Origin: Candidatus Omnitrophota bacterium
Lineage (GTDB): Bacteria > Omnitrophota > Gorgyraeia > Gygaellales > Profunditerraquicolaceae
Reading direction: 5' to 3'
Length of the DNA: 42,763 bases
NCBI GenBank assembly: GCA_028715785.1
Contig: JAQURC010000009.1
Coordinates: 19,539-62,301 of the forward strand
Shown: positions 1 to 26,674 of the stretch, piece after piece
How positions within the stretch are numbered: position 1 is the first letter of the stretch
Layout of the letters: every line of letters starts with the position of its first letter
Translations under genes and position numbers: made by a program
Notes under the pieces: model-generated
What the model saw: the letters and a program-made list of their open reading frames with translations, nothing else
Databases searched by the model: none
What the model was told of the DNA's origin: nothing

Positions 1-2
1 CG

Positions 3-3000
3 GTAAAATTGGAATATTCCACCAATGCCTTTAGCGATGAATTGCAGACAGTAGTTATCGCTGCTTCGACTGATGCCACAGGAACGCCCGCAGGCACTTA
101 CAAATATACCTGGACTATTCCTGACGCCATATCTGCTACGGTAAGAGCAAGGATTACCAATAACGCCGATACTACCGTCAAAGATATTTCCGACGGAAAC
201 TTCAAAATTATCGGCAGTTTTATTCTTACCGCTCCCAACGGCGCGGAACAGTGGACCGTAGGGCAGTCCTATAGTATTACCTGGACTAAGACAGGTTCAA
301 TTACCAACGCCAAGATAGAATACTCGACTAACGGCGGCGCGACTTATCCCAACATAATCATTGCTTCAACACCCGCCGGCGGATTAAGCTATTCCTGGAC
401 AATACCCGATACTATATCCGCAACCGTAAAGGTAAAGATCTCCGATGCTTCCGATGCCACGGTATTCGATGAATCCAACGCTAATTTTACAATTTTGGGC
501 GGATTTACCGTAACCGCTCCCAACGGCGGCGAGGTCTGGACAGTGAATGAGTCCCGCAATATCACCTGGAATACCGCCGGCACTGTAGCTAACGTAAAGC
601 TTGAATATTCTACTGATGGAGGGGGCACTTATCCCAATGTTATTATTGCCACTACTCCTAATAATAACCTATATGCCTGGACGGTTCCGGATAATATCAC
701 CAATGGCGCCAGGATAAAAGTCTCGGATGCTTCCAATGCCAATGCCTTTGACACTTCCAATGCAAACTTTAAAATCCGCGGTTCATTGACCGTAACCGCG
801 CCCAACGGAGCTGAGGCTTGGCCGATAAACTCTACGCAAAACATCACCTGGAACAAAGTAGGCTCCATTACCAACGTAAAATTAGAATATTCCACCAATG
901 CCTTTAGCGATGAATTACAGACTTTTCTTATTACTGCCTCGATAAATGCAACCACCGGCACGCCTTATTCCTGGTTAATTCCGGATAAACCTTCGGCAAC
1001 TGTTAAAGTGCGTATCTCTGATGTCTCAGACTCTACGGTCTATGACTTATCTAACGCTAACTTTAGTATCAAAGGAAGTCTTTGGGTCACTTCACCCAAC
1101 GGCGGGGAGACCTGGGTAGTAGGCAATACCAATAATATTACCTGGACCAAATTTGGCTCCATTGCCAACGTGGAATTAAGGTATTCAACCGACGGAGGCA
1201 CAACCTATCCTGTAGGCAATATCATCATTGCTTCTACTCCTGCTTCTACCTTAACGTATTCCTGGACCATTCCGGATGCTATTAGTACTCAATTAAAAGT
1301 AAAGATTGCCGATGCCGGGGATGCTTCTGTTTTTGATGAATCCAACGCTAACTTTACCATCAAGGGTTCGGTTACGGTAACTTCACCCAACGGCGGGGAG
1401 ACCTGGATTGTCGGCGAAAACAGGAACATTACCTGGACCAGGACTGGTTCCTTCATTAATGTAAAATTGGAATATTCCACCAATGGTTTTACTGATGAAC
1501 TACAGACTACAGTAATCACTGCTTCTATCCTGGCAGCCCCTTTAACTTACGCCTGGACGGTGCCGGATGCCATTGGCACTAATCTAAAGGTAAGGATCTC
1601 CGATGCGGCCGATGCAACGGTTACCGATGTCTCTAACGGGACATTTACGATCAAGGGCGCCTTAACGCTTACCGCGCCCAACGGCGCTGAGACTTGGATT
1701 GTGGGCGAGTCAAGGAACATTACCTGGAACAGGACCGGTTCGATTGCCAATGTCAAGCTTGAATATTCAACTGATGCCGGTGTAAGCTACCCTAATGTGA
1801 TTACTGCCTCAACTTCCGCAGCTACCGGAACCTATGCCTGGACAATCCCGGATGTGATAGGCAATCAATTAAGGGTCAGAGTAACCGACGCTACCGATGC
1901 CACTGTTTTTGCTGCTTCCGCTGCCAACTTTACCGTCAAGGGTTCTTTAACCGTAACCGCGCCCAACGGCGGTGAAGCCTGGGTCGTCGGCACTTCACAA
2001 AACATCACCTGGGCCAAGACCGGGACCATATCTACGGTAAAATTGGAATATTCCACCAATGCCTTTAGCGATGAATTGCAGACAGTAGTTATCGCTGCTT
2101 CGACTGATGCCACAGGAACGCCCGCAGGCACTTACAAATATACCTGGACTATTCCTGACGCTATATCTTCTGCGGTAAAGGTAAGAATTTCAAATACCGC
2201 CGATGCGGCAGTCGTAGATAGATCGGATACGAATTTTAAAATTACAGGCAGCTTTACTTTGATTGCTCCCAACGGCGCAGAACAGTGGACCGTAGATACG
2301 GTCCAGACAATCAATTGGACAAGGACAGGCTCAGTCGCCAATGCCAAACTAGAATACTCCACCGACGGCGGCGCGACTTATCCCAACATAATCATTGCTT
2401 CAATACCCGCCGGCGGATTAAGCTATTCCTGGACAATACCCGATAGCGTATCTACAGCATGCAAAGTAAAGATTTCAGATGCTTCCGATGCTGGGGTTAA
2501 CGATGTTTCAAACGCAAATTTTGCCATACGCGGAGGTTTTGCCATAACCGCTCCCAACGGCGGGGAGGTCTGGACAGTAGGGACATCGCAAAATATTACC
2601 TGGACCACCACAGGTTCGGTTGCCAACGTAAAGTTGGAATATTCCACCGACGGCGGGATCGGGTATCCAAATATAATCGTTGTTTCTACGCCTAACACCG
2701 GAACTTACGGCTGGACAATCCCGGATGATATTTCTGCCACGCTCAAAGTGCGTATCAGCGACGTAAATAACAGCCAGGCATTAGATGTTTCAAACAATAA
2801 TTTTAAGATTCAGGGCGCGCTAGCCATTGCTGCGCCCAACGGCGCGGAACAATGGGAAGTAGCAACCTCTCAGAATATTACCTGGACAAGCACAGGCACA
2901 ATAGCCAACATAAAATTAGAATATTCCACCAACGGTTTTTTTGATGAGTTGCAAACCGTATTAATCACTGCTTCTGTTCCCAACGCAAATACCTATGCCT

Positions 3001-6000
3001 GGACGATACCCGATGCCATATCTTCAACCGTAAAGGTGCGCATTACCAATGTTGCCGATTCTACGGTGTATGATTTGTCAAATGCCAATTTTACGATTAA
3101 AGGTTCGGTGGTATTGACTGCGCCTAATGGAGGAGAGTCTTGGATTGTCGGCACAAGCTATAACATTACCTGGACAAGAACCGGTTCAATCGCCAACGTA
3201 AAGTTGGAATACTCCACCAACGGATTTAGCGATGAATTGCAGACAGTTTCTATTATTGCTTCCACTCCCGCCGCTTCATTAAGTTACGCCTGGACAGTTC
3301 CGGATGCCATAGGCAACATAGTGAAAGTCAGGATCACGGATGCTTCAAATGCTACGGTTACTGATGTTTCTAATGCAGATTTTTCGATAAAAGGCTCGCT
3401 TACTTTGACTGCTCCAAATGGCGCAGAGATTTGGAGGGTAGGAGAGAGCCGTAACATCGCCTGGACAAAGACCGGTTCTATTGCCAACGTGAAACTGGAA
3501 TATTCAACCGACGGCGGCGCAAGTTATCCTAACGTAATTATTTCCTCTAGCGATGCCACAACCGGAACCTATGCCTGGATAGTCCCCGATGCAATCGGAG
3601 CAGCTTTAAGAGTAAAAATAACCAATGTGGCGGATTCGGCGGTTTCGGATGTGTCTAATGCTAACTTTGAGATAAAAGGTTCGCTGATGTTAATTTCTCC
3701 CAATAGCGGAGAAGTTTGGAGTGTGGGCAGTATACAGCCTATTACCTGGTCAAAATCAGGAACAATCGCTGATGTTAAATTAGAGTATTCGACAGACGGG
3801 GGTGTAATATATCCCAATGTAATTATTGTTTCTACTCCTGCGGCAGCAGGCAGTTATTCCTGGACAATACCTGATAGTATTTCTACAAGCGTAAGAGTCA
3901 AGATCACCAGCATCGCCGATCCGGCGGTTTTTGATGCTTCCGATGCCAACTTTAAGATTGCCGGTTCGTTGACCCTTACCGCTCCCAACGGCGGCGAGGC
4001 TTGGATTGTCGGGTCGCCACAGAACATTACCTGGACAAAGACCGGCTCAATTGCCAACGTGAAACTGGAATATTCAACCGACGGCGGCGCAAGTTATCCT
4101 AATTTGATAGCTGCTTCAATAGACGCTGCCCTGGGGACTCCTTATGCCTGGACAATACCCGATGTACCTTCAACCGCTGTTCGTGTGAAAATTACCAATA
4201 CCGCGGACGCTACTATATTTGATGCATCGAATGCCGACTTTAGTATTAAAGGGGCATTTACCATAACTTCTCCCAACGGGGCGGAAACCTGGATAGTGGG
4301 AGAGAGCCGTAATATTACCTGGATAAAAACAGGCTCAATTGCCAATGCGAAATTAGAGTATTCTACCGATGGGGGAAGTAATTATCCTAACCTGATAACC
4401 GCGTCTGTTTCGGCGGCTTTATTAAGTTATGGCTGGACAGTGCCTGATGCGATCGGGGCAAGTTTAAAAGTAAAGATTACAGATGTCGCGGATGTTACGG
4501 TTAGCGATGCTTCAAATACAGATTTTACGATAAAAGGTTCTTTGACATTGACGTCTCCTAATGGCGGAGAAGTCTGGGTAGTGGGAGAGAATCGTAACAT
4601 CACCTGGACAAAGACCGGTTCTATTGCCAACGTGAAACTGGAATATTCAACCGACGGCGGCGCAAGTTATCCCAACGTAATTATTTCCTCTAGCGATGCC
4701 ACAACCGGAACCTATGCCTGGCCGGTTGCAGATGCCATTGGAACCACGCTTAAGGTAAAGATTACCAATGTTGCCGACGTTATGGTCAATGATGTTTCTA
4801 ATACAGATTTTGAAATAAAGGGCTCGCTTATTTTAACTGCGCCAAATGGCGCAGAAACCTGGATTGTCGGCAATAACAATAACATTACCTGGAGCCGCAC
4901 CGGTTCAATCGCCAATGTTAAACTGGAATACTCCGCCGACGGCGGTTTAAGCTATCCCAATGTAATTATTCTGTCTACTCCCGCGGCCGCCGGTAGTTAT
5001 TCCTGGACAGTCCCTGATGTGATCGGAACGACTTTAAGGGTAAAAATAACCAATGTGGCGGACGCAACCGTTTCAGATGCATCCAATGCGAACTTTAAGA
5101 TTGCCGGTTCATTTACGATAACCAGCCCCAATGGCTCTGAAGTCTGGATAGTGGGGGAGAGCCGTAATATCAGCTGGACAAAGACCGGTTCTATTGCTAA
5201 TGCAAAATTAGAGTATTCAACTGACGGAGGAGTAGCTTATCCAAACATGATTACCGCTTCAATCCCCGCTAATTTAGGCAGTTATACCTGGACTATTCCC
5301 GATAATATGTCTTCTACGGTTAAAGTAAGGATTTCCGATGTTACCGATCCAACGGTATTGGGTGCCTCCAATGCCAACTTTAAGATTACCGGGTCATTTA
5401 TAATAACCGCTCCCAACGGAGCAGAGAAATGGCCGATAGGTTCAACTCAGGCAATTACCTGGACAAAGACCGGTTCTATTCTTAATGCGAAATTGGAATA
5501 TTCTATCGATGGAGGGACTAGCTATCCGTATGTGATTATAGCCACTACGCCGGCAGCCAGCCTCAGTTATAACTGGACAGTGCCAAATACTCCCAGCATA
5601 ACCTGCCGGGTAAAAATATCCGATGTTTCCGATCCTACTGTTTTAAAAACTTCGAATGCGGATTTTAAAATTCACGGGGCATTTACTCTGACCAGCCCTA
5701 ATGGCGGAGAAGTCTGGGTAGTGGGAGAGACGCGTAATATCAGCTGGAATACTCTTGGTTCAATCGCCAATGTCAAATTAGAGTATTCTATTGATGGCGG
5801 CTCAACTTATCCCAACTCTATTGTTCTTACTACGCCGAATACAGGTTCATATTCTTGGACCATTCCCGATAATATCGGCACTACTTTAAGAGTAAGGATT
5901 ACCGATGTTACTGATCCCGATGCCACAGCTGTCTCTGCGGCTAATTTTAAGATAAGAGGAAACATTATTATTGGCGCTCCCAACGGCGGCGAGGCCTGGG

Positions 6001-9000
6001 TGGTCGGAACTCTGCAGAATATTACCTGGGCCAAAGTAGGGACCATAGCAAATGTAAAGATAGAGTATTCTACCGACGGCGGCACCACTTATCCTGTAGA
6101 AAACCTGATTGCCGCTTCTCTAGACGCATCTTTAGGGACCTATGCCTGGACAATTCCGGATGCTATTTCTACCACGGTAAAGGTAAAAATTACCAATACC
6201 GTGGATACCACGGTATTCGATGATTCCAATAATAACTTTATTATCCGCGGCGGTTTTACCTTGACCAGTCCAAATGGCGGTGAAAAATGGTCGGTAGGCA
6301 CATCCCGGACGATTACCTGGAATACTTTTGGTACTATTGCCAATGTCAAATTAGAGTATTCCACCGACGGCGGCGCAACATATCCTGTAGAAAACGTGAT
6401 TGTTGCTTCTACGCCTAATCTTGGTTCTTATAACTGGACAATTCCTAATAATATTTCCTCAGCCTGTAAAGTGCGTGTTTCTAATGCCGCCGACCCCGGA
6501 AGTTTTGATGTTTCCGACCTTAACTTTAAGATAATGGGCGGGTTTGGCGTTACTTTCCCCATTGGAGGAGAAGTTTTCGTGATCGGTTCCAGCCAGAATA
6601 TTACCTGGACCACAGCCGGAACAGTGGCTAATGTCAAATTAGAATATTCTACTAATGGCGGCACTAGTTATCCGAATATAATTACCGCTGCTATACCTAA
6701 TACTAATTCCTATACCTGGACGGTGCCGGATGCCATTTCTACTACTGTAAGGGTAAAAGTTTCCGATGCTGCGGATGTTGATGCTTTTGGCGCTTCTGCC
6801 GGGAACTTTAAGATAAGAGCCGGTTTTACCTTAACTAATCCCAGCGGCGGCCAGGCCTGGGTAGTGGCAAGCGCGCAGAATATCACCTGGACTACTTTTG
6901 GAACGGTAGATAATGTAAAATTGGAATATTCCACTGACTCCGGGGCTACTTATCCAAATATCATTATTGCTTTAGTGTTAAATAGCGGCACCTATGCCTG
7001 GACAATACCCGACGCCATTACTCCCGCGGCAAGAGTAAGGGTTTCTGATGTGAATGATTCTACTGCCATGGCTACTTCCACTACAAACTTTAAAATTCAG
7101 GGTTCTTTGACGATAACCGCGCCTGTCGGCGGGGAACAATGGACCGTGGGTTCGGTAAGGACGATTACTTGGGACAGGGTAGGTTCAATTCCTTTTGTAA
7201 AATTAGAATTCTCTACCGACGGTGGGACTCTTTACGCCCCTATTGTTGCCTCAACGGCTAACACCGGAAGTTATTCCTGGACCATACCGGATAATATCTC
7301 TACTACGGTTAAGGTGCGTGTTTCCGATGTTAATGATGCCACGGTAAACAGCGCTTCAGCCGCCAATTTTAAGATTCAGGCTGGTTTTACTATGATTGCT
7401 CCTAATGGCGGAGAGATTTGGCTGGTAGGAAGCAGTCAAAATATTACTTGGTCCACCCAGGGGACTGTGGGTTTTGTAAAGTTGGATTACTCTGTAGATG
7501 GAGGAGCAACATTCCCGGATATAATTACCACTTCCACTGCTAATACAGGCACATATTCCTGGACCGTCCCGGATAGCGTTTCCGGTTCTGTAAAGGTGCG
7601 GGTGAGTAATACGATGGATGCTACATCCTACGCTACTTCCAATGCTAACTTTAGGATCCGCACCACTTTTACTCTGACTTCTCCAAATGGCGGCCAGCAG
7701 TGGCTGGTAGGGGCCGTTCAGAATATCACCTGGAATACGGTGGGGACATTAGCGGGAGTGAAATTAGAGTATTCACGGGACGGTTTCTTAACCGATAAAC
7801 AGTCAATCGCTGCTTCTGCTGCGCCTACAGGAAGTTATGCCTGGACTATACCGGATGCAATCTCCAATACTGTGAGGGTGCGTGTATCCGATCCCAATGA
7901 TATAGGCGCATATAAGGATTCTAGTTCCGATTTTAGGATTACCGCCAGGTTTACGGTAACTGTGCCTAACGGCGCAGAAAAATGGGATGTGGGCAGCACG
8001 CAGGACATAACCTGGAGCTGGGCAGGGACGGTGCCTAATGTAAAATTGGAATATTCTACCAATGGAGGAGCGACATATCCCGATATAATAGCAGCTGCGG
8101 CTAATACAGGCTCTTACACCTGGGTGGTACCGGATACAATCAGCGCTCAATTTAAGATAAGAATCTCTGATTTGGCTGATGCTACTGCAAATGATGTCTC
8201 AGACGCCAATGCCAAAATAAGGGCTAAATTTACAGTAATTTCACCCAACGGCGGCGAAGTCTGGACCGTAGGCGCTTCTCAAAATATAACCTGGAGCACT
8301 GTCGGGACCGTTGCCAATGTGAAACTTGATTATTCGACGGATGGAGGCGCAACTTATCTCGGGGCAATAACAGCATCTACTGCTAATACAGGCACATATT
8401 CCTGGACCGTACCCGATGCTATTTCTACGGCCGTTAAAGTAAGGGTAATGAGCACTACCGATACGGATGCTTTTGACGCTTCCGATAATGATTTTAAGAT
8501 CCGCGGAGCATTAGCAATAACTTCTCCTAACGGAGGAGAGCTATGGCAGATTAATCTGAGCAATAATATAACCTGGAATACCACCGGAACAATTCCAACC
8601 GTAAAATTGGAATACTCTACGGACAGCGGCTCAACTTATCCGAACACAATTGTTGTTTCGGTTGCAAATACCAATACTTACGCCTGGCTTATACCTGATA
8701 ATCCTACAGCTTTTGCCCGTATACGTATAACCGATACGGCGGACGCGACGGTCTATAGTACCTCTGGTGCCAATTTCCGTATCCAGGGTTATTTTACGGT
8801 TACTTCTCCCAATGGAGGAGAAGCTTGGATTGTAGGAAGTGCGCAAAGCATAAACTGGAGCTGGGGCGGGACTATTCCTCTTGTTAAATTAAGTTACTCT
8901 ACGGATTCAGGAACAACTTTTCCTAATGTTATTAATGTTTCCGCGCCAAATGGCGCCGGCGGCGGCGGTAATTATTCTTACGCCTGGACGGTTCCCGATA

Positions 9001-11675
9001 CAGTCTCTCAGGCAGCGCGGGTAAAAATTGAAGACCCGAACGACAATACAGTATTCGATATCTCCAATGCTGATTTTAAGATAAGAGGCAATTTTGTTTT
9101 AACCAGCCCCAACGGAGCTGAACGCTGGATTACCGATGAGGTCCACGCGATAACCTGGGCCACAACCGGGACCGTAGCCAATGTAAAACTGCAGTATTCT
9201 AAAGATAATTTTGTTTCAGACATAAATACTATTGTTGTTTCCACTCCTAACACAAATACGTATAACTGGACGATCCCCGACGACCGATCGACCACGGTGA
9301 AGGTCAGGGTCTTGGATGCCAGCGATGATACCGTCAATGCGGTATCGGCCGCCAATTTTAAGATAGACTATTATACGATAACCTGGATCCTAAAAGACCT
9401 TCTAACCAACGAGCAATTAACCAACCTTTCCGTGGTTGAAAAGGATACGGCTAGTTTAACTACGCTGAATTGGCAGACAGCCGGGCAGACTTCGCCTGTA
9501 ACGCATCAAACCAAATATGGGTTATGGACTGCCACCTGGTCCTGCTCCGGCTACGGCGATAAAGCCCAGAATTACGCGGCCAATTCCGATCAGACATTTA
9601 CCTTATATATGGAAACGACAGTTATACACATATGGCGTACGTATTCGGAATTCGCGTATAATTCCACAGGCGACAGGCTGGATGTAAGCTCATGGCTGGA
9701 AAGAGACGGCGGCGTGGTTTCCGGCGCTGTTTCCGTTAAGGTTGATATTTATGATGCTGGCGTCTTAATTAAAACATTGACTTCAAATACGCCTAGCGAA
9801 GGTGGATTTTTTAACCTAGATTGGGCTCCTTCCGGTTTGTCGGCGAGCAAGGTTTATACTACTGTTACCGAAATTACCAATGCATCCGGCGCAAAATTCA
9901 AGACACCCGGCTCATTTGAAATTACCGCCGCCAAGCGGCTCGAAGAGATGCAGACAACGGTTAATTCTGTCCTGGATAAGCCCATGTCCCAGGTGAATGC
10001 GGATTTACAGGCAACGTTAGCTGCACAAACAGCGACTATTGATACCAAGATGACCGAGCAGACCAATGTTATTACCCAGAAAACCGATGAAATGAAGGCC
10101 GCGATAGATACGAGCTTGAGTAGTTTTGAGACAAAAACTACTGAGGCCATCACCAAGCTGCAGTCAGGCGCAGATAAAGCGGTTTCTGCCGGCGCGACCC
10201 TTGAGGCAACTGCGAAAAGATTTTCCTGGCAGGCCTCTGTTTCTCCCGATCCTGCATTAACCGACGATACGATCACCTTATCTTGCCAAGGGCAGCCGGG
10301 GTTATTTCCTGTCTTAGTTATCTACAGCTGGGATAATAAAACCATCGTAGATAACGTAGTTTTAAAGGACACCAGCGGCCAGGGGCTTTATACCTATGAG
10401 TTTGAAGCAGATAGCCGGTTTACTGCAGGCAAGGCTTATACTTATGTGATTACCGAACAGAGTACCGGCGGTATGGTCTCTGGTTCAGGAATGGTGGAGA
10501 GTATGGGTATCACTACGGTAGCGGGTTTAGCCGCGGCCGCTCCGGAAGCAGAGCGGGCAGCCAAGCAGGCATTGGATGCGATCCAGGCGGTGGAGACAAT
10601 TTTGGGATCCAAAGATAATACCAATATCTCCCTTAGTTTGAAAAATCTTAAGGAATCGATAGATAGATTGCCCGAAACCATAGCAAAAGAAGGACCTTCC
10701 GTGCGCCTCACCAGCTCTTTGAATGAAATCTCGGAGAGGGTAAAAAAATTAGCCGGCGATGAAGGTTATAATATGAATAAATTATTGGAACAGGCCATCA
10801 GTGAGTCTCCGACCGTTAAAGATATACGCGGTAAAACCGAGGCGATTAATTCGGTTATCGATCTTTTAATGCGGCTCTTTGAGGCAAAATTCGGCGGCAT
10901 AGATGCCCCGATTATCTCGACTTCTCTTCAGCCGGGCAGCGTAAAATTCCGCATTGTGGCGATGAACCCCTCTAAAGTCAGGGCGCAGTCGGTAGAGGTT
11001 AAATATAATTTACCCTCCGAGGTAAAACCCAAAGATATTATGGATACAGGCGGGTTGGACCTGGAATATGATTCTGAAAAGTCTATTTATTATATGCATA
11101 AACCGGAATTCGAGCTTTTGCCCGCAGAAGTTAAGGTTTATGAAGTAGAAGTTGAAGATGTCTGGGTTATCCAGGAGAAAAAACTCGATAGCTTAAGAAA
11201 ACGCGTGGACAATATCATGGATAAGTTACAGAAAACCCCGTATTATGAAAAGGGCAAAGAGATAGCCGATACTATCTATCCGCGTTTAGATGAGATAGCT
11301 GTTTCTCAAAAAGACGATTCAGTCAATCGTGAGCAGCATATAGGTATTTATCGCCAGAATCTTTTGACCTTAGAGCAGATCAAAGAAGATATCGGCCGGA
11401 TGGAGAAGATCCTGGTTACTGCCGGAGGCCCCGCTTCCCCTGAAATGTTGTCTAAAACCAGGATAAAGGCGGATGAACCCACCAAGACAATGACCTGGAT
11501 ATTGGTATTTGTCATTATTGTCTTTATCGGCCTCTTAACGGGTGTGCTTTTCTTTACCTGGCACCGCCAGGCGCGCCTGACCCGCGAAGAACTTTTGTCC
11601 GCTAAAGAATCTGCTTTTCCGGAACCTGATTTAAAGGAAGAACAGGAAAGTAAAGAGACCGAAATAAAAGAATAA
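3..11675 (+). CDS. Giant surface repeat protein (5' truncated by window edge): ~33 tandem Ig-like/Kre9-KNH-type domains, membrane-proximal coiled-coil region, C-terminal TM helix, short acidic cytoplasmic tail
   Basis: Open frame from the window edge; about 33 repeats of [GSLTVTAPNGGExWxVGxSxNITWxxxGxIxNVKLEYSTDGGxxYPNxIxxSTPxxxxYxWTIPDxIxxxVKVRISDxxDxxVxDxSNANFKIK]; C-term TM MTWILVFVIIVFIGLLTGVLFF followed by KEEQESKETEIKE tail. Confidence 0.9.
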   Translation, partial: VKLEYSTNAFSDELQTVVIAASTDATGTPAGTYKYTWTIPDAISATVRARITNNADTTVKDISDGNFKIIGSFILTAPNGAEQWTVGQSYSITWTKTGSITNAKIEYSTNGGATYPNIIIASTPAGGLSYSWTIPDTISATVKVKISDASDATVFDESNANFTILGGFTVTAPNGGEVWTVNESRNITWNTAGTVANVKLEYSTDGGGTYPNVIIATTPNNNLYAWTVPDNITNGARIKVSDASNANAFDTSNANFKIRGSLTVTAPNGAEAWPINSTQNITWNKVGSITNVKLEYSTNAFSDELQTFLITASINATTGTPYSWLIPDKPSATVKVRISDVSDSTVYDLSNANFSIKGSLWVTSPNGGETWVVGNTNNITWTKFGSIANVELRYSTDGGTTYPVGNIIIASTPASTLTYSWTIPDAISTQLKVKIADAGDASVFDESNANFTIKGSVTVTSPNGGETWIVGENRNITWTRTGSFINVKLEYSTNGFTDELQTTVITASILAAPLTYAWTVPDAIGTNLKVRISDAADATVTDVSNGTFTIKGALTLTAPNGAETWIVGESRNITWNRTGSIANVKLEYSTDAGVSYPNVITASTSAATGTYAWTIPDVIGNQLRVRVTDATDATVFAASAANFTVKGSLTVTAPNGGEAWVVGTSQNITWAKTGTISTVKLEYSTNAFSDELQTVVIAASTDATGTPAGTYKYTWTIPDAISSAVKVRISNTADAAVVDRSDTNFKITGSFTLIAPNGAEQWTVDTVQTINWTRTGSVANAKLEYSTDGGATYPNIIIASIPAGGLSYSWTIPDSVSTACKVKISDASDAGVNDVSNANFAIRGGFAITAPNGGEVWTVGTSQNITWTTTGSVANVKLEYSTDGGIGYPNIIVVSTPNTGTYGWTIPDDISATLKVRISDVNNSQALDVSNNNFKIQGALAIAAPNGAEQWEVATSQNITWTSTGTIANIKLEYSTNGFFDELQTVLITASVPNANTYAWTIPDAISSTVKVRITNVADSTVYDLSNANFTIKGSVVLTAPNGGESWIVGTSYNITWTRTGSIANVKLEYSTNGFSDELQTVSIIASTPAASLSYAWTVPDAIGNIVKVRITDASNATVTDVSNADFSIKGSLTLTAPNGAEIWRVGESRNIAWTKTGSIANVKLEYSTDGGASYPNVIISSSDATTGTYAWIVPDAIGAALRVKITNVADSAVSDVSNANFEIKGSLMLISPNSGEVWSVGSIQPITWSKSGTIADVKLEYSTDGGVIYPNVIIVSTPAAAGSYSWTIPDSISTSVRVKITSIADPAVFDASDANFKIAGSLTLTAPNGGEAWIVGSPQNITWTKTGSIANVKLEYSTDGGASYPNLIAASIDAALGTPYAWTIPDVPSTAVRVKITNTADATIFDASNADFSIKGAFTITSPNGAETWIVGESRNITWIKTGSIANAKLEYSTDGGSNYPNLITASVSAALLSYGWTVPDAIGASLKVKITDVADVTVSDASNTDFTIKGSLTLTSPNGGEVWVVGENRNITWTKTGSIANVKLEYSTDGGASYPNVIISSSDATTGTYAWPVADAIGTTLKVKITNVADVMVNDVSNTDFEIKGSLILTAPNGAETWIVGNNNNITWSRTGSIANVKLEYSADGGLSYPNVIILSTPAAAGSYSWTVPDVIGTTLRVKITNVADATVSDASNANFKIAGSFTITSPNGSEVWIVGESRNISWTKTGSIANAKLEYSTDGGVAYPNMITASIPANLGSYTWTIPDNMSSTVKVRISDVTDPTVLGASNANFKITGSFIITAPNGAEKWPIGSTQAITWTKTGSILNAKLEYSIDGGTSYPYVIIATTPAASLSYNWTVPNTPSITCRVKISDVSDPTVLKTSNADFKIHGAFTLTSPNGGEVWVVGETRNISWNTLGSIANVKLEYSIDGGSTYPNSIVLTTPNTGSYSWTIPDNIGTTLRVRITDVTDPDATAVSAANFKIRGNIIIGAPNGGEAWVVGTLQNITWAKVGTIANVKIEYSTDGGTTYPVENLIAASLDASLGTYAWTIPDAISTTVKVKITNTVDTTVFDDSNNNFIIRGGFTLTSPNGGEKWSVGTSRTITWNTFGTIANVKLEYSTDGGATYPVENVIVASTPNLGSYNWTIPNNISSACKVRVSNAADPGSFDVSDLNFKIMGGFGVTFPIGGEVFVIGSSQNITWTTAGTVANVKLEYSTNGGTSYPNIITAAIPNTNSYTWTVPDAISTTVRVKVSDAADVDAFGASAGNFKIRAGFTLTNPSGGQAWVVASAQNITWTTFGTVDNVKLEYSTDSGATYPNIIIALVLNSGTYAWTIPDAITPAARVRVSDVNDSTAMATSTTNFKIQGSLTITAPVGGEQWTVGSVRTITWDRVGSIPFVKLEFSTDGGTLYAPIVASTANTGSYSWTIPDNISTTVKVRVSDVNDATVNSASAANFKIQAGFTMIAPNGGEIWLVGSSQNITWSTQGTVGFVKLDYSVDGGATFPDIITTSTANTGTYSWTVPDSVSGSVKVRVSNTMDATSYATSNANFRIRTTFTLTSPNGGQQWLVGAVQNITWNTVGTLAGVKLEYSRDGFLTDKQSIAASAAPTGSYAWTIPDAISNTVRVRVSDPNDIGAYKDSSSDFRITARFTVTVPNGAEKWDVGSTQDITWSWAGTVPNVKLEYSTNGGATYPDIIAAAANTGSYTWVVPDTISAQFKIRISDLADATANDVSDANAKIRAKFTVISPNGGEVWTVGASQNITWSTVGTVANVKLDYSTDGGATYLGAITASTANTGTYSWTVPDAISTAVKVRVMSTTDTDAFDASDNDFKIRGALAITSPNGGELWQINLSNNITWNTTGTIPTVKLEYSTDSGSTYPNTIVVSVANTNTYAWLIPDNPTAFARIRITDTADATVYSTSGANFRIQGYFTVTSPNGGEAWIVGSAQSINWSWGGTIPLVKLSYSTDSGTTFPNVINVSAPNGAGGGGNYSYAWTVPDTVSQAARVKIEDPNDNTVFDISNADFKIRGNFVLTSPNGAERWITDEVHAITWATTGTVANVKLQYSKDNFVSDINTIVVSTPNTNTYNWTIPDDRSTTVKVRVLDASDDTVNAVSAANFKIDYYTITWILKDLLTNEQLTNLSVVEKDTASLTTLNWQTAGQTSPVTHQTKYGLWTATWSCSGYGDKAQNYAANSDQTFTLYMETTVIHIWRTYSEFAYNSTGDRLDVSSWLERDGGVVSGAVSVKVDIYDAGVLIKTLTSNTPSEGGFFNLDWAPSGLSASKVYTTVTEITNASGAKFKTPGSFEITAAKRLEEMQTTVNSVLDKPMSQVNADLQATLAAQTATIDTKMTEQTNVITQKTDEMKAAIDTSLSSFETKTTEAITKLQSGADKAVSAGATLEATAKRFSWQASVSPDPALTDDTITLSCQGQPGLFPVLVIYSWDNKTIVDNVVLKDTSGQGLYTYEFEADSRFTAGKAYTYVITEQSTGGMVSGSGMVESMGITTVAGLAAAAPEAERAAKQALDAIQAVETILGSKDNTNISLSLKNLKESIDRLPETIAKEGPSVRLTSSLNEISERVKKLAGDEGYNMNKLLEQAISESPTVKDIRGKTEAINSVIDLLMRLFEAKFGGIDAPIISTSLQPGSVKFRIVAMNPSKVRAQSVEVKYNLPSEVKPKDIMDTGGLDLEYDSEKSIYYMHKPEFELLPAEVKVYEVEVEDVWVIQEKKLDSLRKRVDNIMDKLQKTPYYEKGKEIADTIYPRLDEIAVSQKDDSVNREQHIGIYRQNLLTLEQIKEDIGRMEKILVTAGGPASPEMLSKTRIKADEPTKTMTWILVFVIIVFIGLLTGVLFFTWHRQARLTREELLSAKESAFPEPDLKEEQESKETEIKE
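9..9365 (+). repeat. Tandem protein-coding repeat array, ~280-290 bp unit, about 32 complete copies plus one partial
   Basis: Recurrent PNGxExW...NITW...WTxPD...NFKI motif counted by eye in the translation; near-identical DNA blocks at larger offsets. Confidence 0.9.
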
Positions 11676-11909: not shown

Positions 11910-12124
11910 GCCGTAACCTGTCGTTGGTCTTAATTTTTTGTTTCTGTATCCTGGGGCCTTGTGCGGTTTTTGCTGCCGGCACTTTTTCCAGTATCACCGC
12001 TTTAGGCAGGAATCCCTCCAGCGCTCCCAAGATTTTTACGGCGATGATCATTGCTTTGGTTTTTGCCCAGTCTCTGGCGATTATTGCCATGTTGATTGTT
12101 TTTCAGCTTTTTAGTTCCTCTTAA
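11906..12124 (+). CDS. atpE: F-type ATPase c-like subunit (72 aa), essential TM2 carboxylate replaced by Gln
   Basis: GRNPSSAPKIFTAMIIALVFAQSLAIIAMLIVFQLF aligns with c-subunit 'ARNPxxxxKLFxxMILGLAFxEALAIYGLVVAFxL'; ATGA overlap with the epsilon gene. Confidence 0.75.
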   Translation: MSRNLSLVLIFCFCILGPCAVFAAGTFSSITALGRNPSSAPKIFTAMIIALVFAQSLAIIAMLIVFQLFSSS

Positions 12125-12140
12125 AAACGGGAGACCAGAT

Positions 12141-12860
12141 ATGCTTATTGTTTCTTTGATTTTATTTCAGCTTCTTATTTTTGGCGGGCTGATATTCCTG
12201 TTACGCCGCGTATTGACTAAAAACGTTACCGATGCCACAAAACATCTTGAAGAATTAAGCCATGATTATTCCCAGAAAGAACAAAAACTTAACCAGCAGC
12301 TCGAGGAAGCAAAAGAAAAATCGCAGAATATTATCAGGGAGGCTCAAGCGGAAGCAGAGAGGCTGAGAGCGCAAAATATTAAAGACGCGGAAAACCAAAG
12401 GGATTTGATTTTAAATCAGGCGCGCTCTCAAAGCGATACGATTATCCGGCAGGCAGACAAATCGCGCAATGCGCTTATTTCCGAACTGGAAGCCAGGATT
12501 GAAAAAGAAGCAATAAATAAAGCCTGCGACTTAATGCAGGTGACCTTGCCTGAGAAATTCAGGCAGGAGGTGCATCTTTATTGGGTAAAAGAGCTGCTGG
12601 AAGATGGGTTCAGCCAGTTAAGGCACCTGCAATTTCCAAGCGATATCAGCGAAGTCAAGATCACTTGCGCATTCCCCTTAACTGATGAGCAGCGTAAGAA
12701 TCTATCCAAGAAAATAAATGATGTGTTAGGTTATGATGCCCAATTGAAAGAGGAGACCGAACCTAAGGTAGTTGCCGGTTTGATCATTAGTATAGGAAGC
12801 CTGGTCCTAGACGGAAGCCTGAAGAATAAGATCGAAGAGCAGGCCAAGGGTAAAAAATAA
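12141..12860 (+). CDS. F-type ATPase b-delta fusion subunit
   Basis: N-term TM plus long charged coiled coil with AEAER (b type); C-term VKITCAFPLTDEQRKNLSKKINDVLGYDAQLKEETEPKVVAGLIISIGSLVLDGSLKNKIEEQ matches delta C-term 'PLTxEQxxxLxxxLxxxxGxxvxLxxxvDPxLIGGvxvrIGdxViDGSvrxxL'; GGGAG upstream of ATG 12141. Confidence 0.85.
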   Translation: MLIVSLILFQLLIFGGLIFLLRRVLTKNVTDATKHLEELSHDYSQKEQKLNQQLEEAKEKSQNIIREAQAEAERLRAQNIKDAENQRDLILNQARSQSDTIIRQADKSRNALISELEARIEKEAINKACDLMQVTLPEKFRQEVHLYWVKELLEDGFSQLRHLQFPSDISEVKITCAFPLTDEQRKNLSKKINDVLGYDAQLKEETEPKVVAGLIISIGSLVLDGSLKNKIEEQAKGKK

Positions 12861-12890
12861 TCCGCAGCTATAATAAGATTGGAGCGAGCT

Positions 12891-14360
12891 TTGAAGTTTG
12901 AAGTAAGAGAAGTCGGCAAGGTCAAATCTGTGCGCAAATTTATTGTTATGGCTTCAGGGCTTCCTTCTTGCGTGAACGGCCAGATCGTGGAGTTTGCCAA
13001 CGGCACCTGGGGCCTGGTGATGGGGTTTACCGAAGACAAAGTCCAGATCCTGGTTTTAGGCGATGCAACTTCGATCCGGGCAGGAGATGAGGTTTATAAT
13101 AAAGGTAAATCTTTAAATTTACCGGTGGGTGAGGCTTTTATCGGAAGGATGGTTAACGGGCTCTGCCAGCCGCAGGATGATCAAGGGCCGATAGCGGCAG
13201 ATGAAGCTTACCCGGTATTTAAAGTTGCTCCCGGAGTTATGGAGCGTGCCCCGGTTAAGGAGTCCCTGGAGACAGGAACCTTAATTATAGATGCGATTAT
13301 CCCTATTGCCAAAGGGCAGCGCCAGCTGCTTATCGGAGATCGGCTTACGGGCAAGACAACGGTAGCCATCGATGCGATATTAAATCAAAAAGGCAAGGAT
13401 GTTATTTGTATTTATTGTTGCATAGGAAAGCCTTTTTCAGCCCTTGTAAAAATAATCGATACCTTAAAGGAGCACGGTTGCCTTAGTTACACCTGTGTAG
13501 TTACCGGCGTAGCCTCTTTATCCCCGGGAGAACAGTATCTTGCCCCTTACACTGCCTGCATGTTAGGGGAGTATTTTATGCAGAAGGGCCGCGATGTGCT
13601 GGTGGTGTTGGATGATTTGACCAAACATGCCTGGATATACAGGCAGATATCTTTGCTCCTGGAGCGCGCCCCGGGAAGAGAGGCCTACCCGGGAGATATA
13701 TTTTATATTCATTCCCAATTGATGGAGCGCGCCGGTTACCTAAAGGCAGAATTAGGCGGCGGTTCAATGACTTTCCTGCCTATCGTAGACATACTTCAGG
13801 GGGATGTTACCGGCTACATTTCCACAAACCTTATTTCTATGACTGACGGGCAATTGTATTTTTCTACCAGCCTCTTTAACCGGGGTTTTAAACCGGCAAT
13901 CGATTTCGGGCTTTCGGTATCGCGTATCGGCAATAAAGCGCAATGGCCGGCGATGAGGGAGTTAAGTAAAACTCTGCGCCTGGATTACCTTCAATATAAA
14001 GAACTTTTACAGATGACCCAATTGCGCACTAGCGGGCTTTCTAAAGAGGCCGAAAGCAAGCTGGCGCGCGGGGGAGCAATGAATCAATTAATTGTTCAGG
14101 ATAAGAACAAGCCGACCGTTATAGAGGAGCAGATAATTTATCTTTACGCCTTAAATCGCGGGATCCTGGATAATTTATCCGATAACCAGTTAAAGCAGTT
14201 TAGGCAGGAAGCCTTCCTGTTTATAAATAAACACTATCCTGGTTTTTGTAAGGATGTGCGCGCTAAGCAGGAATTAACCGGCGAAATTAAAGAGAAATTG
14301 GAATCTTGCTTTAAAGAATATTTTAAAGCGTTGCTAAAGGGGGATGCTGCCGATAAATGA
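12891..14360 (+). CDS. atpA: F1-type ATPase alpha-like subunit (diverged, short N-terminus)
   Basis: Walker A GDRLTGKTT; LLLERAPGREAYPGDIFYIHSQLMERA; arginine-finger context SVSRIG; TTG start at 12891 (GGAG spaced 6 nt) or TTG 12879. Confidence 0.9.
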   Translation: MKFEVREVGKVKSVRKFIVMASGLPSCVNGQIVEFANGTWGLVMGFTEDKVQILVLGDATSIRAGDEVYNKGKSLNLPVGEAFIGRMVNGLCQPQDDQGPIAADEAYPVFKVAPGVMERAPVKESLETGTLIIDAIIPIAKGQRQLLIGDRLTGKTTVAIDAILNQKGKDVICIYCCIGKPFSALVKIIDTLKEHGCLSYTCVVTGVASLSPGEQYLAPYTACMLGEYFMQKGRDVLVVLDDLTKHAWIYRQISLLLERAPGREAYPGDIFYIHSQLMERAGYLKAELGGGSMTFLPIVDILQGDVTGYISTNLISMTDGQLYFSTSLFNRGFKPAIDFGLSVSRIGNKAQWPAMRELSKTLRLDYLQYKELLQMTQLRTSGLSKEAESKLARGGAMNQLIVQDKNKPTVIEEQIIYLYALNRGILDNLSDNQLKQFRQEAFLFINKHYPGFCKDVRAKQELTGEIKEKLESCFKEYFKALLKGDAADK

Positions 14361-15190
14361 GGACCCTTTCGAACATAAAAAAAGATATAGAATTTAATCA
14401 GGGCCATGCCTCTTTGATCGAGGCCCTGAAGAATATCGCGGTGGCTCAATTCAGGATACACGAACAAAAGCTAAAATCATTCGAAAAAATTATTTCGACC
14501 GTAGAAGATTTTTTTAAACTTATCAATATCGATGATATTAATTGCCCGTTTTTAAGGCCCCAAAAAGGCCTTTTAGGCGTAGTCGTGGTCACTTCCGACA
14601 GCGGCCTTCTGGGCGGGCTTAATCTAAAGGTCATAAACCAGGCTCTTTTGGAATTAGAGAAGACCCCGGGCAAGCTTATCGTGATTGGCGCCTGCGGAAA
14701 GAATTATCTTCGAGAAACTAAATTTTCTTTTGTTTCTTTTGGCGGCGTCAATGATGAACAGCGTTATGTCCAGGCAATGCAGTTAAAGGACTATTGTTTA
14801 GGCAAGGTTGCAGAAGGCGTATTTGGGTCTCTCAAGGTAGTTTATCCGCACCCTATTTCATTCACTGTGCAACGGGTGGAGACGCTGACGTTTTTGCCGT
14901 TTCTACCGGCTCAAAAATCAAATGTCCCTGTCGGCGATTTAATTTTAGAGTCCAGCCCGGCGGATATCATCCAATACCTGGTATCTGTCTGGATAGGGCA
15001 GAAATTTTATGATATCTTTGGTTTAAGCCGCCTGTCGGAATTCGCGGCGCGTTTCGTGCATCTTGAAGAGAGCTCCCAGAAGTTAAAAGATATAGAAAAA
15101 AATTTGAAGCTTCAATATTTTCGCGTAAGGCATGAATTTATTGACAGGAATATGCGCGAGCTTTTTAGCGCAAGGTTATTATATACCTAA
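14357..15190 (+). CDS. atpG: F1-type ATPase gamma-like subunit
   Basis: N-term RTLSNIKKDIEF...LIEALKNIAVAQFR, TSDSGLLGGLNLKV, C-term helix ending MRELFSARLLYT; between alpha and beta; ATGA overlap with alpha. Confidence 0.88.
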   Translation: MRTLSNIKKDIEFNQGHASLIEALKNIAVAQFRIHEQKLKSFEKIISTVEDFFKLINIDDINCPFLRPQKGLLGVVVVTSDSGLLGGLNLKVINQALLELEKTPGKLIVIGACGKNYLRETKFSFVSFGGVNDEQRYVQAMQLKDYCLGKVAEGVFGSLKVVYPHPISFTVQRVETLTFLPFLPAQKSNVPVGDLILESSPADIIQYLVSVWIGQKFYDIFGLSRLSEFAARFVHLEESSQKLKDIEKNLKLQYFRVRHEFIDRNMRELFSARLLYT

Positions 15191-15202: not shown

Positions 15203-16594
15203 ATGAGCGATAATAATACAGGCAGGATAGTTTCGGTGCAGGGCCCGGTAGTGGATGTAAAATTCTCTACTGCTTTAGAGGTGCCCAATATTTTTACGAT
15301 TATCAATACCCAGAATATAGATAAAGAAGCGGTTGTTCTGGAGGTCGCCGAGCATCTGCCGGGTAATATCGCCCGTTGTATTGCTATCAATTCTACGATA
15401 AATATCCAGCGCAATGCCCAGGCCCGTCCAACAGGCGCGGCAATCCAGATCCCTTCCGGAGAAGTGCTTTTTGGGCGCATCATAAATATCTTGGGGGATC
15501 CCATAGATAATAAGGAAAAGCCGCTTTCGCCGGAAAAGTTTGATATAAGAAAAAAGGACATGGGCAGCTTGATTAAGGTCAAATCAACGGTCAAAAAAAG
15601 TTTTGAGGTTATGGAGACCGGGATCAAAATTGTTGATTTGCTTTTTCCCGTGGTTAAGGGGAGCAAGACCGGGATCTTGGGCGGGGCGGCTTTAGGCAAA
15701 AGTATCCTTACTTTAGAGATAATCCAGCACATCGTGAAAAAATATCAGGGCAGTTGTGTGTTTGTAGGCGTGGGGGAACGTATCCGCGAAGGAAATGAAT
15801 TATATTATGAGCTTTCAAAACACGATGTATTATCAAAAACAATGATGGTTTTTGGCCAGATGAATGAGCCTCCCGGGGCCCGTTTTGGCGTGGCCATGAC
15901 CGGTATCAGCATGGCAGAATCCGTCCAGCGTAAAAATCAGGATGTTCTTCTTTTTGTGGATAATATCTTCAGGTTTATCCAGGCAGGCGCTGAAATATCC
16001 ACTCTTTTAGGCAGGGTCCCTTCAGAGACAGGGTATCAACCCACTTTGATTTCTGAAGCAAGCGAGTTCCACGAAAGGATCCGTTCCTCGACGGATTCAG
16101 GAGGCTCGATAACCGCTTTTGAAGCAGTCTATGTGCCTGCGGATGATTTGACCGATCCGGCAGTAGTGGCCATTTTTAGTTTTCTTGATTCGATCCTGGT
16201 GCTTTCCCGCGAACGGATACAGTTAGGGTTGTATCCGGCAATAGATCCCCTGCAATCTTCTTGCGCCAACCTGGATATCGATATCGTGGGCAGGAGGCAT
16301 TTTGAGGTTGCCCAGGAGGTGATCAGGATTTTCCAAAGGTATGAGGAATTAAGGCGGATTGTTTTGGTGGTGGGAGTCGATGAACTTTCAAGCGCCGACA
16401 GGATTATTTATGAACGGGCCCGGAAATTGCAGAACTTCCTTACCCAGCCGTTTTTCGTGGCCGAGGCCTATACGGGTAAGCAGGGCCAATATGTAACCAG
16501 CGAACAGACCCTTAGCGGTTGCGAAAGAATAATCGCGGGGAAATTTGATTCAAAGCCGGAGGGGGAGTTCTATCTGATCGGAGCATTAACCTAG
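15203..16594 (+). CDS. atpD: F1-type ATPase beta-like subunit
   Basis: GGAALGKS Walker A, GERIREGNELYYE, MNEPPGAR, LLFVDNIFRFIQAGAEISTLLGRVPSETGYQPTL, VYVPADDLTDPA, LGLYPAIDPL, DELSSAD at the DELSEED position, QPFFVAEAYTG. Confidence 0.95.
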   Translation: MSDNNTGRIVSVQGPVVDVKFSTALEVPNIFTIINTQNIDKEAVVLEVAEHLPGNIARCIAINSTINIQRNAQARPTGAAIQIPSGEVLFGRIINILGDPIDNKEKPLSPEKFDIRKKDMGSLIKVKSTVKKSFEVMETGIKIVDLLFPVVKGSKTGILGGAALGKSILTLEIIQHIVKKYQGSCVFVGVGERIREGNELYYELSKHDVLSKTMMVFGQMNEPPGARFGVAMTGISMAESVQRKNQDVLLFVDNIFRFIQAGAEISTLLGRVPSETGYQPTLISEASEFHERIRSSTDSGGSITAFEAVYVPADDLTDPAVVAIFSFLDSILVLSRERIQLGLYPAIDPLQSSCANLDIDIVGRRHFEVAQEVIRIFQRYEELRRIVLVVGVDELSSADRIIYERARKLQNFLTQPFFVAEAYTGKQGQYVTSEQTLSGCERIIAGKFDSKPEGEFYLIGALT

Positions 16595-16603
16595 GGGGTG
16601 CTT

Positions 16604-17062
16604 ATGGTTAGAAAAAAGCTGGGTGAGATTTTAATCGAAAAAGGCCTAATTACTCCTAAGCAGCTAGAGGATGCTTTATCTGAACAGTCAAGGACAAAGG
16701 AGTTTCTTGGCAAAATTTTATCTGATAAAAATCAGATTAAAGAGTTGGATTTGCTAAAAGTATTATCCGAGCAATTTAAAATCCCCATAGTTAATTTGAA
16801 GCACAGTTATACTGATTGGGCATTGATTAAAAGTTTCGGCTCATCTTCGATTTTGGATTATAAGTGTTTTCCGCTGAAAAAAGATGATTGGTCGGTGACA
16901 TTTGCGATAAGCAACCCCTTAGACGCCTGGGCATTAAAGAAAATAGAAGAAGTGGCAAGAGGGTTAAAGGTGCAATTGGTCCTGGTTTCTCAGGAGGATA
17001 TGCTTGAGGTTATTGACGGATACCGAAAATATTTAAACGAGAATATTGCCAAACTATTTTAA
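16604..17062 (+). CDS. Stand-alone MshEN/T2SSE-N domain protein (candidate c-di-GMP sensor)
   Basis: KKLGEILIEKGLITPKQLEDALSEQ followed by FLGKILSDKNQIKELDLLKVLSEQ, the paired 24-residue MshEN motifs; no ATPase domain. Confidence 0.75.
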   Translation: MVRKKLGEILIEKGLITPKQLEDALSEQSRTKEFLGKILSDKNQIKELDLLKVLSEQFKIPIVNLKHSYTDWALIKSFGSSSILDYKCFPLKKDDWSVTFAISNPLDAWALKKIEEVARGLKVQLVLVSQEDMLEVIDGYRKYLNENIAKLF

Positions 17063-17066
17063 GAAT

Positions 17067-19220
17067 ATGCCGAAAAAAATAGATACTATTTTATCCGAAG
17101 GCTTAATCGAAAGAGGGTTGATTTCCAAGGAAGCCTTAGAGCCTCTTTTTGGGGAAATAGAAAAAACCGGTGAAAGCCTCCAGCAGGTTTTAGTTAAGCG
17201 CCAGTTGGCCCTAGAGAAAGATATTTTAGCTGTTTTTGCCGAGAAATTAAAACTTGTTTGCCTGATAAACTTAAAAGAGGTTCCCATAGATAAATCTGTT
17301 TTTGACAAGGTCCCGCTAAAGGTTGCCTCGTATTATAAATTTCTGCCCGTAAGTTTAAAAGACAGGTTATTGACTATTGCCGTATCCAGCCCCTTGGATA
17401 TCAAAATTCAGGATGAGATAAGGACGCATTTAGGTTTTGATATAGAAACGGTCCTTTCCCGCCATGGCGATATATTGGATTCCTTAAAAAAATATTATGG
17501 TTTTGCCGCCGATACCATGAAAGAGATTTCACAGGGTTCTGAAGCTAGGCGGGGCTTCCAGGAGCATGCGCAGGAAAAAGTAGAAGATATCGAGAAATTG
17601 GCCGGAGATGCTTCAGTAATCAGGTTGGTTAATCAGGTAATTCTAGAAGGATATAAAAAGCGCGCCACGGACATTCATATCGAACCTCATCGGGAAGGAG
17701 TAAGCCTGCGCTACCGCATCGACGGTTTGCTTTATGAAACTAAAGTTGCTTCCGAAATAAAGAATTTCTTAAGCGCTATTATCTCGCGTATTAAAATCAT
17801 GTCTAATTTAAATATTGTGGAGCGCCGCCTTCCCCAGGACGGCCGGGCAATCGTTAAGGTCGCAGAGCAGATGCTTGATTTGAGGATCTCTACGATGCCC
17901 ACGCCGTTTGGCGAAAGCGTAGTCATCAGGATCCTGCCCACCAAGATGCTTTTTAGTTTGGAAAAATTAGGCCTGCCAAAAAAAGATCTGCAAATCTTTG
18001 AGAGCCTGATCCTCAAACCCCACGGCATAATTTTTATTACCGGCCCCACCGGAAGCGGAAAGACAACTACCTTATATACATGTTTGAGCAGGATCAATAC
18101 AAAAGAACGCAAGATCATTACCATTGAGGATCCCATCGAATATGAGATGCCTAATATTACCCAGATCCAGGTTGCCCCGGAGATCGGCCTGGATTTTGCC
18201 CGGGGGTTACGCAGTATCTTAAGGCATGATCCTGATGTGATAATGTTGGGGGAAGTGAGGGATTTAGAGACCGCCCAGATCGCCATCCGCGTTGCCTTGA
18301 CCGGGCATATGGTATTTTCTACGCTGCATACTAATGACGCGGTTAGCGGCATTAACCGCTTAACCGATATCGGTGTCGAGCCGTATCTTTTGGCTTCCAG
18401 CGTCGAAGCATTTATTGCCCAGCGCCTTATAAGGTTAATTTGTCCGGACTGCAAGTATGAGGATAAGGCTGCTTCGGAGCAATTAAGGGAGATGATTGCT
18501 AGGGACCTAGGGTTAAAATCAATGGATGAAGTAAAAATCTTTAGAGGCAAGGGTTGTGCCGGTTGTAATTTTACCGGTTTTTTCGGCAGGACGGCAATAT
18601 ATGAGATTTTGGTTATGGATGGGGCGATAAAAGATTTAATTTTAAAGAAAGCCACTTCCGGGCAGATTACCAAAGTAGCCCTGGCAAAGGGGATGCGCAC
18701 TTTACGCCAGGATGGCTGGCAGAAGACAGTTGCCGGTTTAACTACTCCCGAGGAGGTAATGAAAACAACTTCTGCTCAAGAGCAGCCAAATGATTTAGAG
18801 AGCAGGGCTCAGGTTTCTTTGGGGGTTTTTACGCCTGAGAGCGCCCATCCTCCCAAAGAAAGCGGAAAAAGAGCCTATCAACGCTTAAACAGCAGGGTCA
18901 ATCTGCGCTATAAGCTTCTTAAATCGCAAGGTGATCTGCTTAAGCGGGGATTTACTCCCGAAGAACTTAGCGTTACCAGCAATATTTCTGCCGGAGGTTT
19001 GCTTTTTTTCTCGGATGAAATATTAGCTGTCGGTTCAATTTTAGAGTTAATTTTAGAGCTGCCTGGAGGAGGCGAAGATCCCATAGAGTGTTTAGCCAGG
19101 GTGACGAGGGTCGAGGAGATGGATCAAGAAGGAAAGTATAACATAGCGGTCTGTTTTTTGGATATAACCGGCGCGCAAAGGGGGAGGCTGAATAAATTTG
19201 TTGAGCAGGAATTAAGTTAA
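17067..19220 (+). CDS. gspE: Type II secretion/type IV pilus assembly ATPase (GspE/PilB) with C-terminal PilZ domain
   Basis: GPTGSGKTTTLYTCLSRIN, IEDPIEYEMPNITQIQV, RHDPDVIMLGEVRD, TGHMVFSTLHTNDA, CPDC...CAGC; C-term RAYQR...NISAGG is PilZ-like RxxxR...NxSxxG. Confidence 0.93.
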   Translation: MPKKIDTILSEGLIERGLISKEALEPLFGEIEKTGESLQQVLVKRQLALEKDILAVFAEKLKLVCLINLKEVPIDKSVFDKVPLKVASYYKFLPVSLKDRLLTIAVSSPLDIKIQDEIRTHLGFDIETVLSRHGDILDSLKKYYGFAADTMKEISQGSEARRGFQEHAQEKVEDIEKLAGDASVIRLVNQVILEGYKKRATDIHIEPHREGVSLRYRIDGLLYETKVASEIKNFLSAIISRIKIMSNLNIVERRLPQDGRAIVKVAEQMLDLRISTMPTPFGESVVIRILPTKMLFSLEKLGLPKKDLQIFESLILKPHGIIFITGPTGSGKTTTLYTCLSRINTKERKIITIEDPIEYEMPNITQIQVAPEIGLDFARGLRSILRHDPDVIMLGEVRDLETAQIAIRVALTGHMVFSTLHTNDAVSGINRLTDIGVEPYLLASSVEAFIAQRLIRLICPDCKYEDKAASEQLREMIARDLGLKSMDEVKIFRGKGCAGCNFTGFFGRTAIYEILVMDGAIKDLILKKATSGQITKVALAKGMRTLRQDGWQKTVAGLTTPEEVMKTTSAQEQPNDLESRAQVSLGVFTPESAHPPKESGKRAYQRLNSRVNLRYKLLKSQGDLLKRGFTPEELSVTSNISAGGLLFFSDEILAVGSILELILELPGGGEDPIECLARVTRVEEMDQEGKYNIAVCFLDITGAQRGRLNKFVEQELS

Positions 19221-23225: not shown

Positions 23226-23592
23226 AGGGTTTACCCTTATAGAAATAATGATGACCACAGTGGTTTTGTCCCTGGGGACCATTTTGATATACGGGGCATT
23301 TTTTACTTCCCTGGATTCATTTAATCTCTATAGCGATTATTTAAACCTCACTTCCTGGATGGATGAGCAGGTTTGGAGGGCGCAGGATGATTTGAGTAAG
23401 TTTGGGGCTTTGGCCCGGATTCAGACGGCAGGTGAATTTCAAAAGTCAGGCAAGGTTTTTAGGTGGGGCCTAAACTATAGCTTGATCGATGATAAGTTAT
23501 ATAAGATCGACCTGGATCTTTATTGGCAACGCGGCAGAAGAAAAACAGGGCTATCGAGAAGCGCATATGCACAGTATAATAAAAAAGAATAA
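23203..23592 (+). CDS. Type II secretion minor pseudopilin (GspI/H-like)
   Basis: MTSKIGNKG|FTLIEIMMTTVVLSLGTILIYGAFF class III signal; starts inside the 3' end of the gspG frame. Confidence 0.75.
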   Translation: MTSKIGNKGFTLIEIMMTTVVLSLGTILIYGAFFTSLDSFNLYSDYLNLTSWMDEQVWRAQDDLSKFGALARIQTAGEFQKSGKVFRWGLNYSLIDDKLYKIDLDLYWQRGRRKTGLSRSAYAQYNKKE

Positions 23593-24154: not shown

Positions 24155-24180
24155 TTCAGCTGTTTATTTAAAAGGACGGT

Positions 24181-25185: not shown

Positions 25186-25188
25186 GGT

Positions 25189-26673: not shown

Positions 26674-26674
26674 G

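Follow-up and report, generated by a model that had tools for sequence, protein, structure and literature searches.

An Ig-array giant gene of Omnitrophota, its probable change of length in seven-domain units and its linkage to F1-like ATPase genes

Introduction

The stretch of DNA analysed here (the window; 42,763 nucleotides, C9:19539-62301) belongs to an Omnitrophota genome of 1.46 Mb in 18 contigs with a completeness of 96%. It opens within a giant gene built of near-identical repeats, which is followed by a set of F1-like ATPase genes. The locus raises two questions: whether the exact identities in the array record real duplications or a fault of assembly, and whether the giant protein and the ATPase belong together. 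In the main-text passages of Seymour et al. 2023 (PMC10066038), giant ORFs of >20 kb are described as common in Omnitrophota and treated as a separate signature of symbiosis, and F-type ATPases of the Mycoplasma type 2/3 clade are described as adjoining type IV pilus (T4aP) genes.

Results

A giant protein of at least 53 Ig-like domains

The window carries the 3' part of the giant ORF (3..11675, + strand; 3890 aa, 5' end open), and the protein does extend leftward past the window edge, as an earlier note on this DNA had stated: the 5' part, including a signal peptide, lies on the same contig (C9:13819-19438), before a gap of 100 Ns, and encodes 1873 aa with 14 full and 1 partial domains. The minimal closed protein has 6334 aa and 53 domains, with the reading frame unbroken throughout, and comprises a signal peptide, an N-terminal head, the Ig array, a coiled-coil stalk, a membrane-proximal module and one C-terminal transmembrane helix.

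The presence of an Ig-like domain array in this stretch is certain. A profile built from the repeats recovered 33 domains of ~94 aa, matching the earlier count of about 33 Ig/Kre9-KNH-like domains: a partial domain 1 (3..218, +; profile positions 31-95) and 32 full domains of ~93-102 aa each (domains 2-33; 219..9371, +), the array ending at aa 3123 (nt 9371). The assignment rests on the repeat profile, on Pfam Kre9_KNH (PF10342), for which the array scores 157.5 bits against a cut-off of 24.6, and on a three-domain model that folds as an Ig-type beta sandwich (pLDDT 95.7, pTM 0.81). PF10342 was named after fungal cell-wall proteins; here, the array domains, which score well above the family cut-off, form a bacterial tandem rod of at least 53 units. 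Structural matches to the model in the PDB were chained Ig proteins and a bacterial adhesin extender (E-values of 1e-8 to 1e-6), and a PDB sequence search with one Ig domain gave no significant match. The protein resembles giant bacterial adhesins with Ig-like extender arrays (e.g., PDB 6xi3) in its long Ig rod of near-identical repeats, but differs from them in having a C-terminal membrane anchor and adjoining F1-like genes; Pfam detected no RTX or autotransporter part in the giant protein.

Between array and module runs the stalk (9372..10919, +), composed of a long coiled coil, a beta region and a second helical region; neither the stalk nor the N-terminal head produced a Pfam match above cut-off. 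The module (10920..11672, +), the last ~240 aa of the protein, consists of a beta-sandwich, a helical bundle, the transmembrane helix (about 11475-11558, +) and a short tail, and has 20 invariant columns in 26 sequences. A fold search with the module returned nothing below an E-value of 0.1 and no convincing match, and a PDB sequence search with it gave no significant match.

At L127-L128 (G011:C1), a complete giant ORF of 12,861 aa includes only 19 domains of this Ig type; it has exact repeats peculiar to itself (281 bp at +1524), and its module and F1-like neighbours are of the kind found here. In a MAG from Lac Pavin (L064), an in-frame stop falls within the Ig array at ~746-748, which may be a pseudogene, an error or a real variant.

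The scaffold gap and the 127-bp edges

According to the earlier note, window positions 1-127 are identical to 2035-2161, with similarity continuing into the next units. Both statements hold: identity stops at base 128, and 331-411 is identical to 2365-2445 at 80 of 81 positions. Counted from base 3, the longest exact repeat within the array measures 125 bp; in 20 codon-shuffled copies the corresponding length was 12-15 bp, and elsewhere in the window it was 17 bp.

The length of 127 bp, however, is an assembler k-mer edge and not the true extent of the repeat. The gap of 100 Ns (C9:19439-19538) directly precedes window base 1. The first 127 bp after it, with which the sub-contig starts (vertex U; 1..127, +), recur at 2035..2161 (+), at an offset of 2034 bp or seven domains, and the last 127 bp before it recur at 198..324 (vertex V; +). 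Both matches cover exactly 127 bp, with not one base further into the array. De Bruijn assembly at k=127, a standard top k-mer in metaSPAdes-type assemblers, leaves edges of exactly this length at a branching repeat. The resulting repeat graph reads Left-V-(325..2034)-U-(128..197)-V-(325..2034)-U-Right. Its 70-bp link from U to V (128..197, +) is unique and occurs only between these two vertices, so that in some genome of the sample the block occurs two or more times; we accordingly regard the presence of at least two copies of the seven-domain tandem block as very probable. From this graph closure we infer that the gap is a collapsed tandem repeat of the 2034-bp, seven-domain block, with the tract 198..2161 (+; 1964 bp, ~1.96 kb) apparently standing for at least two copies.

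In the sister species (G020), the corresponding array is likewise interrupted by a gap of 100 Ns, with 127-bp edges on both sides, a 2034-bp period and a collapsed tract of 1595 bp. Both gap edges thus repeat elsewhere over exactly 127 bases in either genome (127 + 127 in C9, 127 + 127 in G020). The left piece of G020 spans one full block and runs into the following one, and in-frame closure yields a minimal protein of 6354 aa and 53 domains. At assembly resolution the collapsed tracts are identical within each species, and the block is 77-78% identical between them. Identity between orthologous domains of the sisters is uneven: it is 86-94% in the last 14 domains and 83-89% in aL05-aL10, but lower, at 63-78%, for the central domains, and the step lies at R19/R20. 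In quartets of domains, clustering within species prevailed over orthology, by 33 versus 10 sites for aR02/aR09, which lie at the seven-domain offset, and by 22 versus 6 sites for aR13/aR17.

The bin also contains a 31-kb contig, C10 (G000:C10:1-31125; L008, L010), which duplicates the F1-like and pilus genes. Its reading as a paralogous second copy (88% DNA identity) was rejected because, over the 30,401 bases compared, C10 matches the G020 locus (G020:C1) at 100% identity and starts at the first base after the G020 gap; the contig belongs to the sister species and was mis-binned.

A seven-domain register across relatives

A genome of the same family (G166) has no gap and contains an exact tandem repeat of 2259 bp with a period of 2217 bp, equal to seven domains. 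Across 16 non-redundant arrays, with near-identical domain pairs left out, domain similarity was strongest at lag 7 (combined z = 8.7, which is not a strict probability since the arrays share ancestry), and lags 5, 6, 8 and 9 reached z of about 1. Lag 7 ranked first in 6 of these arrays, and in G166 as well once identical pairs were kept; in the window array, keeping them put lag 4 slightly ahead of lag 7. Taken together, the array most probably changes its length by unequal homologous recombination in a seven-domain register. Of the recent segmental duplication or gene conversion proposed in the earlier note, the event itself is supported by the collapsed block here and in the sister species and by the exact tandem in the third genome, and 127 bp as its extent falls. 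The suggested length variability is not seen in the minimal counts, which are 53 domains in both sister species.

An F1-like ATPase locus with pilus genes

Downstream of the giant gene, on the same strand, lie genes for a b/delta fusion with an N-terminal hydrophobic helix and an OSCP C-terminus (12096..12860, +) and for F1-like alpha (12879..14360, +; P-loop GDRLTGKT), gamma (14357..15190, +) and beta (15203..16594, +; P-loop GGAALGKS, with GERIREGNE kept). The P-loops of alpha and beta are intact, and beta keeps the GER motif. Pfam shows only these four proteins between 12096 and 16594; no epsilon-like subunit, X0 gene or membrane protein of 3 or 12 helices was found at the locus. The same genome has a canonical F-ATPase operon on C6 and a V/A-type pair on C4, and the F1-like alpha of the window is 44% identical to the canonical copy and 48-78% identical to the F1-like group.

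The set is followed by a stand-alone MshEN domain (16598..17062, +), a GspE/PilB-type ATPase with MshEN and PilZ (17046..19220, +), GspF/PilC (19260..20525, +), a histidine kinase gene and then pseudopilin and platform genes (22464..27232, +) encoding a receiver-GspG fusion, a GspJ-like protein, GspK, PilM-PilN and GspM/PilO. Upstream of the giant gene are genes for an ExeA-like ATPase, a secretin and a TPR protein, and type IV pilus/T2SS genes (GspE, GspF, pseudopilins, PilMN, secretin) lie within 10 kb of the F1-like set. The MshEN gene and the MshEN/PilZ-bearing GspE (16598-19220), directly after the F1-like genes, carry domains of the cyclic di-GMP-binding kind. At 22464-23225 a response-regulator receiver domain is fused in frame to the GspG pseudopilin, whose prepilin motif GFTLIEL begins at about residue 125; the sister contig has the fusion too (93% identity), and related loci mostly match one half only.

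A second F1-like set adjoins a second giant gene on C1 (L118; G000:C1:1-20000), where a giant ORF and a membrane-module protein accompany it; the counterpart giant ORF in G020 has 5207 aa (L119).

Linkage of the module to F1-like genes across the phylum

The membrane-proximal module may be joined to the array in one protein or stand alone as a short protein directly after a giant ORF, and across 57 named loci it is followed, in a recurring order, by b/delta, alpha, gamma, beta, GspE and GspF. The order fails mainly at contig ends, but also in L110 and in a few divergent loci (L106, L111 and L113-L115) with reordered F1 genes. L098, L108 and L112 are second module copies without nearby F1 genes, in genomes that also have a linked copy.

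A module profile, which includes the stalk, matched 159 of 384 phylum genomes. For the converse test we used gamma, which separates at ~300-365 versus 91 bits; alpha was dropped as a marker because the respiratory alpha, at 44% identity, is not cleanly separable. Module and F1-like gamma were found together in 143 of the 384 genomes, the module only in 16, gamma only in 25 and neither in 200, corresponding to an odds ratio of 71.5. Among the matches listed, an F1 gamma was present on the same contig in 77 of 83 module places, at a median distance of 3.1 kb. Because the phylum genomes are related and fragmented, these figures denote a strong association between module and F1-like genes and do not prove contact between the proteins. 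The module was also seen near F1-like alpha in MAGs labelled Planctomycetales, Latescibacterota and Verrucomicrobia (L105, L113, L114), by transfer or mis-binning.

Discussion

We favour, as a probable reading of the whole, an anchored surface fibre lengthened by recombination of seven-domain units and possibly driven by an F1-like motor; its parts differ in strength. Regarding the array, repeated unequal homologous recombination in the seven-domain register would lengthen and shorten it. That assembly error alone accounts for the 127-bp identity, with a misplaced or chimeric contig end and no second copy of the block, is very improbable. Such an error would fit the length of the repeat, 127 being a usual assembler k-mer, its location exactly at a scaffold gap and the presence of the mis-binned C10 in the bin; yet the unique link 128-197 between the repeat vertices could not be produced by a simple join of known pieces, the G020 sequence gives the 2034-bp period on its own, with a left piece consisting of a full block and the beginning of the following one, and G166 shows the exact seven-domain tandem gap-free and uncollapsed. 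A mixture of strains, one with a single block and another with two or more, both entering the co-assembly, is unlikely but deserves more weight, as a metagenome bin represents a population and an identical graph would be expected to result. Even so, this mixture still requires at least one strain with two copies, and the resolved left piece of G020 already runs from one block into the next.

Regarding function, we consider the giant protein to be probably a surface fibre anchored in the inner membrane, with a likewise probable adhesive or contact role. The protein would be secreted and held in the inner membrane by its C-terminal module, its 53 or more rod-like Ig domains would span very roughly 0.2 micrometre when extended, and the fibre would touch other cells or surfaces. 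The extra F1-like ATPase might work on or with the membrane anchor, as Mycoplasma F1-like ATPases do with surface proteins. Direct mechanical coupling of the anchor to the F1-like motor is a tentative proposal, somewhat short of an even chance. A nearly comparable, slightly lower weight goes to a giant protein that is a static adhesin or surface coat, with the F1-like ATPase serving only the pilus genes and the shared operon being regulatory: pilus/T2SS genes, too, are nearly always present at these loci, and the main text of Seymour et al. 2023 describes F-ATPase/T4aP loci, but in nearly all loci the module precedes b/delta, both where it forms part of the array protein and where it is a short protein of its own. 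The most specific version of the motor-linked fibre, in which a channel-less F1-like ATPase pulls or turns an Ig leg or tether for contact or gliding, with its length tuned in seven-domain units, is speculative and rather unlikely.

Known systems offer partial parallels. The Mycoplasma F1-like X0 ATPases (PMC3369863, PMC12994834) likewise have extra alpha, beta and gamma subunits beside the respiratory enzyme and a genomic tie to surface proteins (MIB-MIP), and the MIB-MIP surface system requires the ATPase (Berlureau 2026, PMC12994834). Their clusters, however, encode an epsilon-like subunit together with membrane proteins of 3 and of 12 helices (Beven 2012, PMC3369863; PMC12994834), whereas here there are a b/delta fusion and a single-pass giant protein. 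The 'symbiotic' type 2/3 F-ATPase/T4aP loci of Omnitrophota (PMC10066038) come from the same phylum and have the same F1-like subunits beside pilus genes; compared with the main text of that study, the present locus adds an Ig-array giant ORF with a conserved C-terminal module directly upstream of the F1-like genes. We found no report, the main-text passages of PMC10066038 included, that ties a giant ORF to an F1-like locus or describes a seven-domain unit, and both the link and the unit appear to be new here.

Short-read assemblies understate the length of giant repeat genes such as this Ig-array ORF, and the seven-domain register provides a concrete rule for the evolution of such genes. Giant ORFs and non-respiratory F-type ATPases rank among the strangest traits of Omnitrophota and, in the passages cited, were reported apart as signs of symbiosis; their frequent adjacency through the ~240-aa module makes them testable as one machine. 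If the fibre is indeed motor-driven, seven domains would make up one of its structural periods, and the whole would be a machine for contact or gliding, suited to life on other cells.
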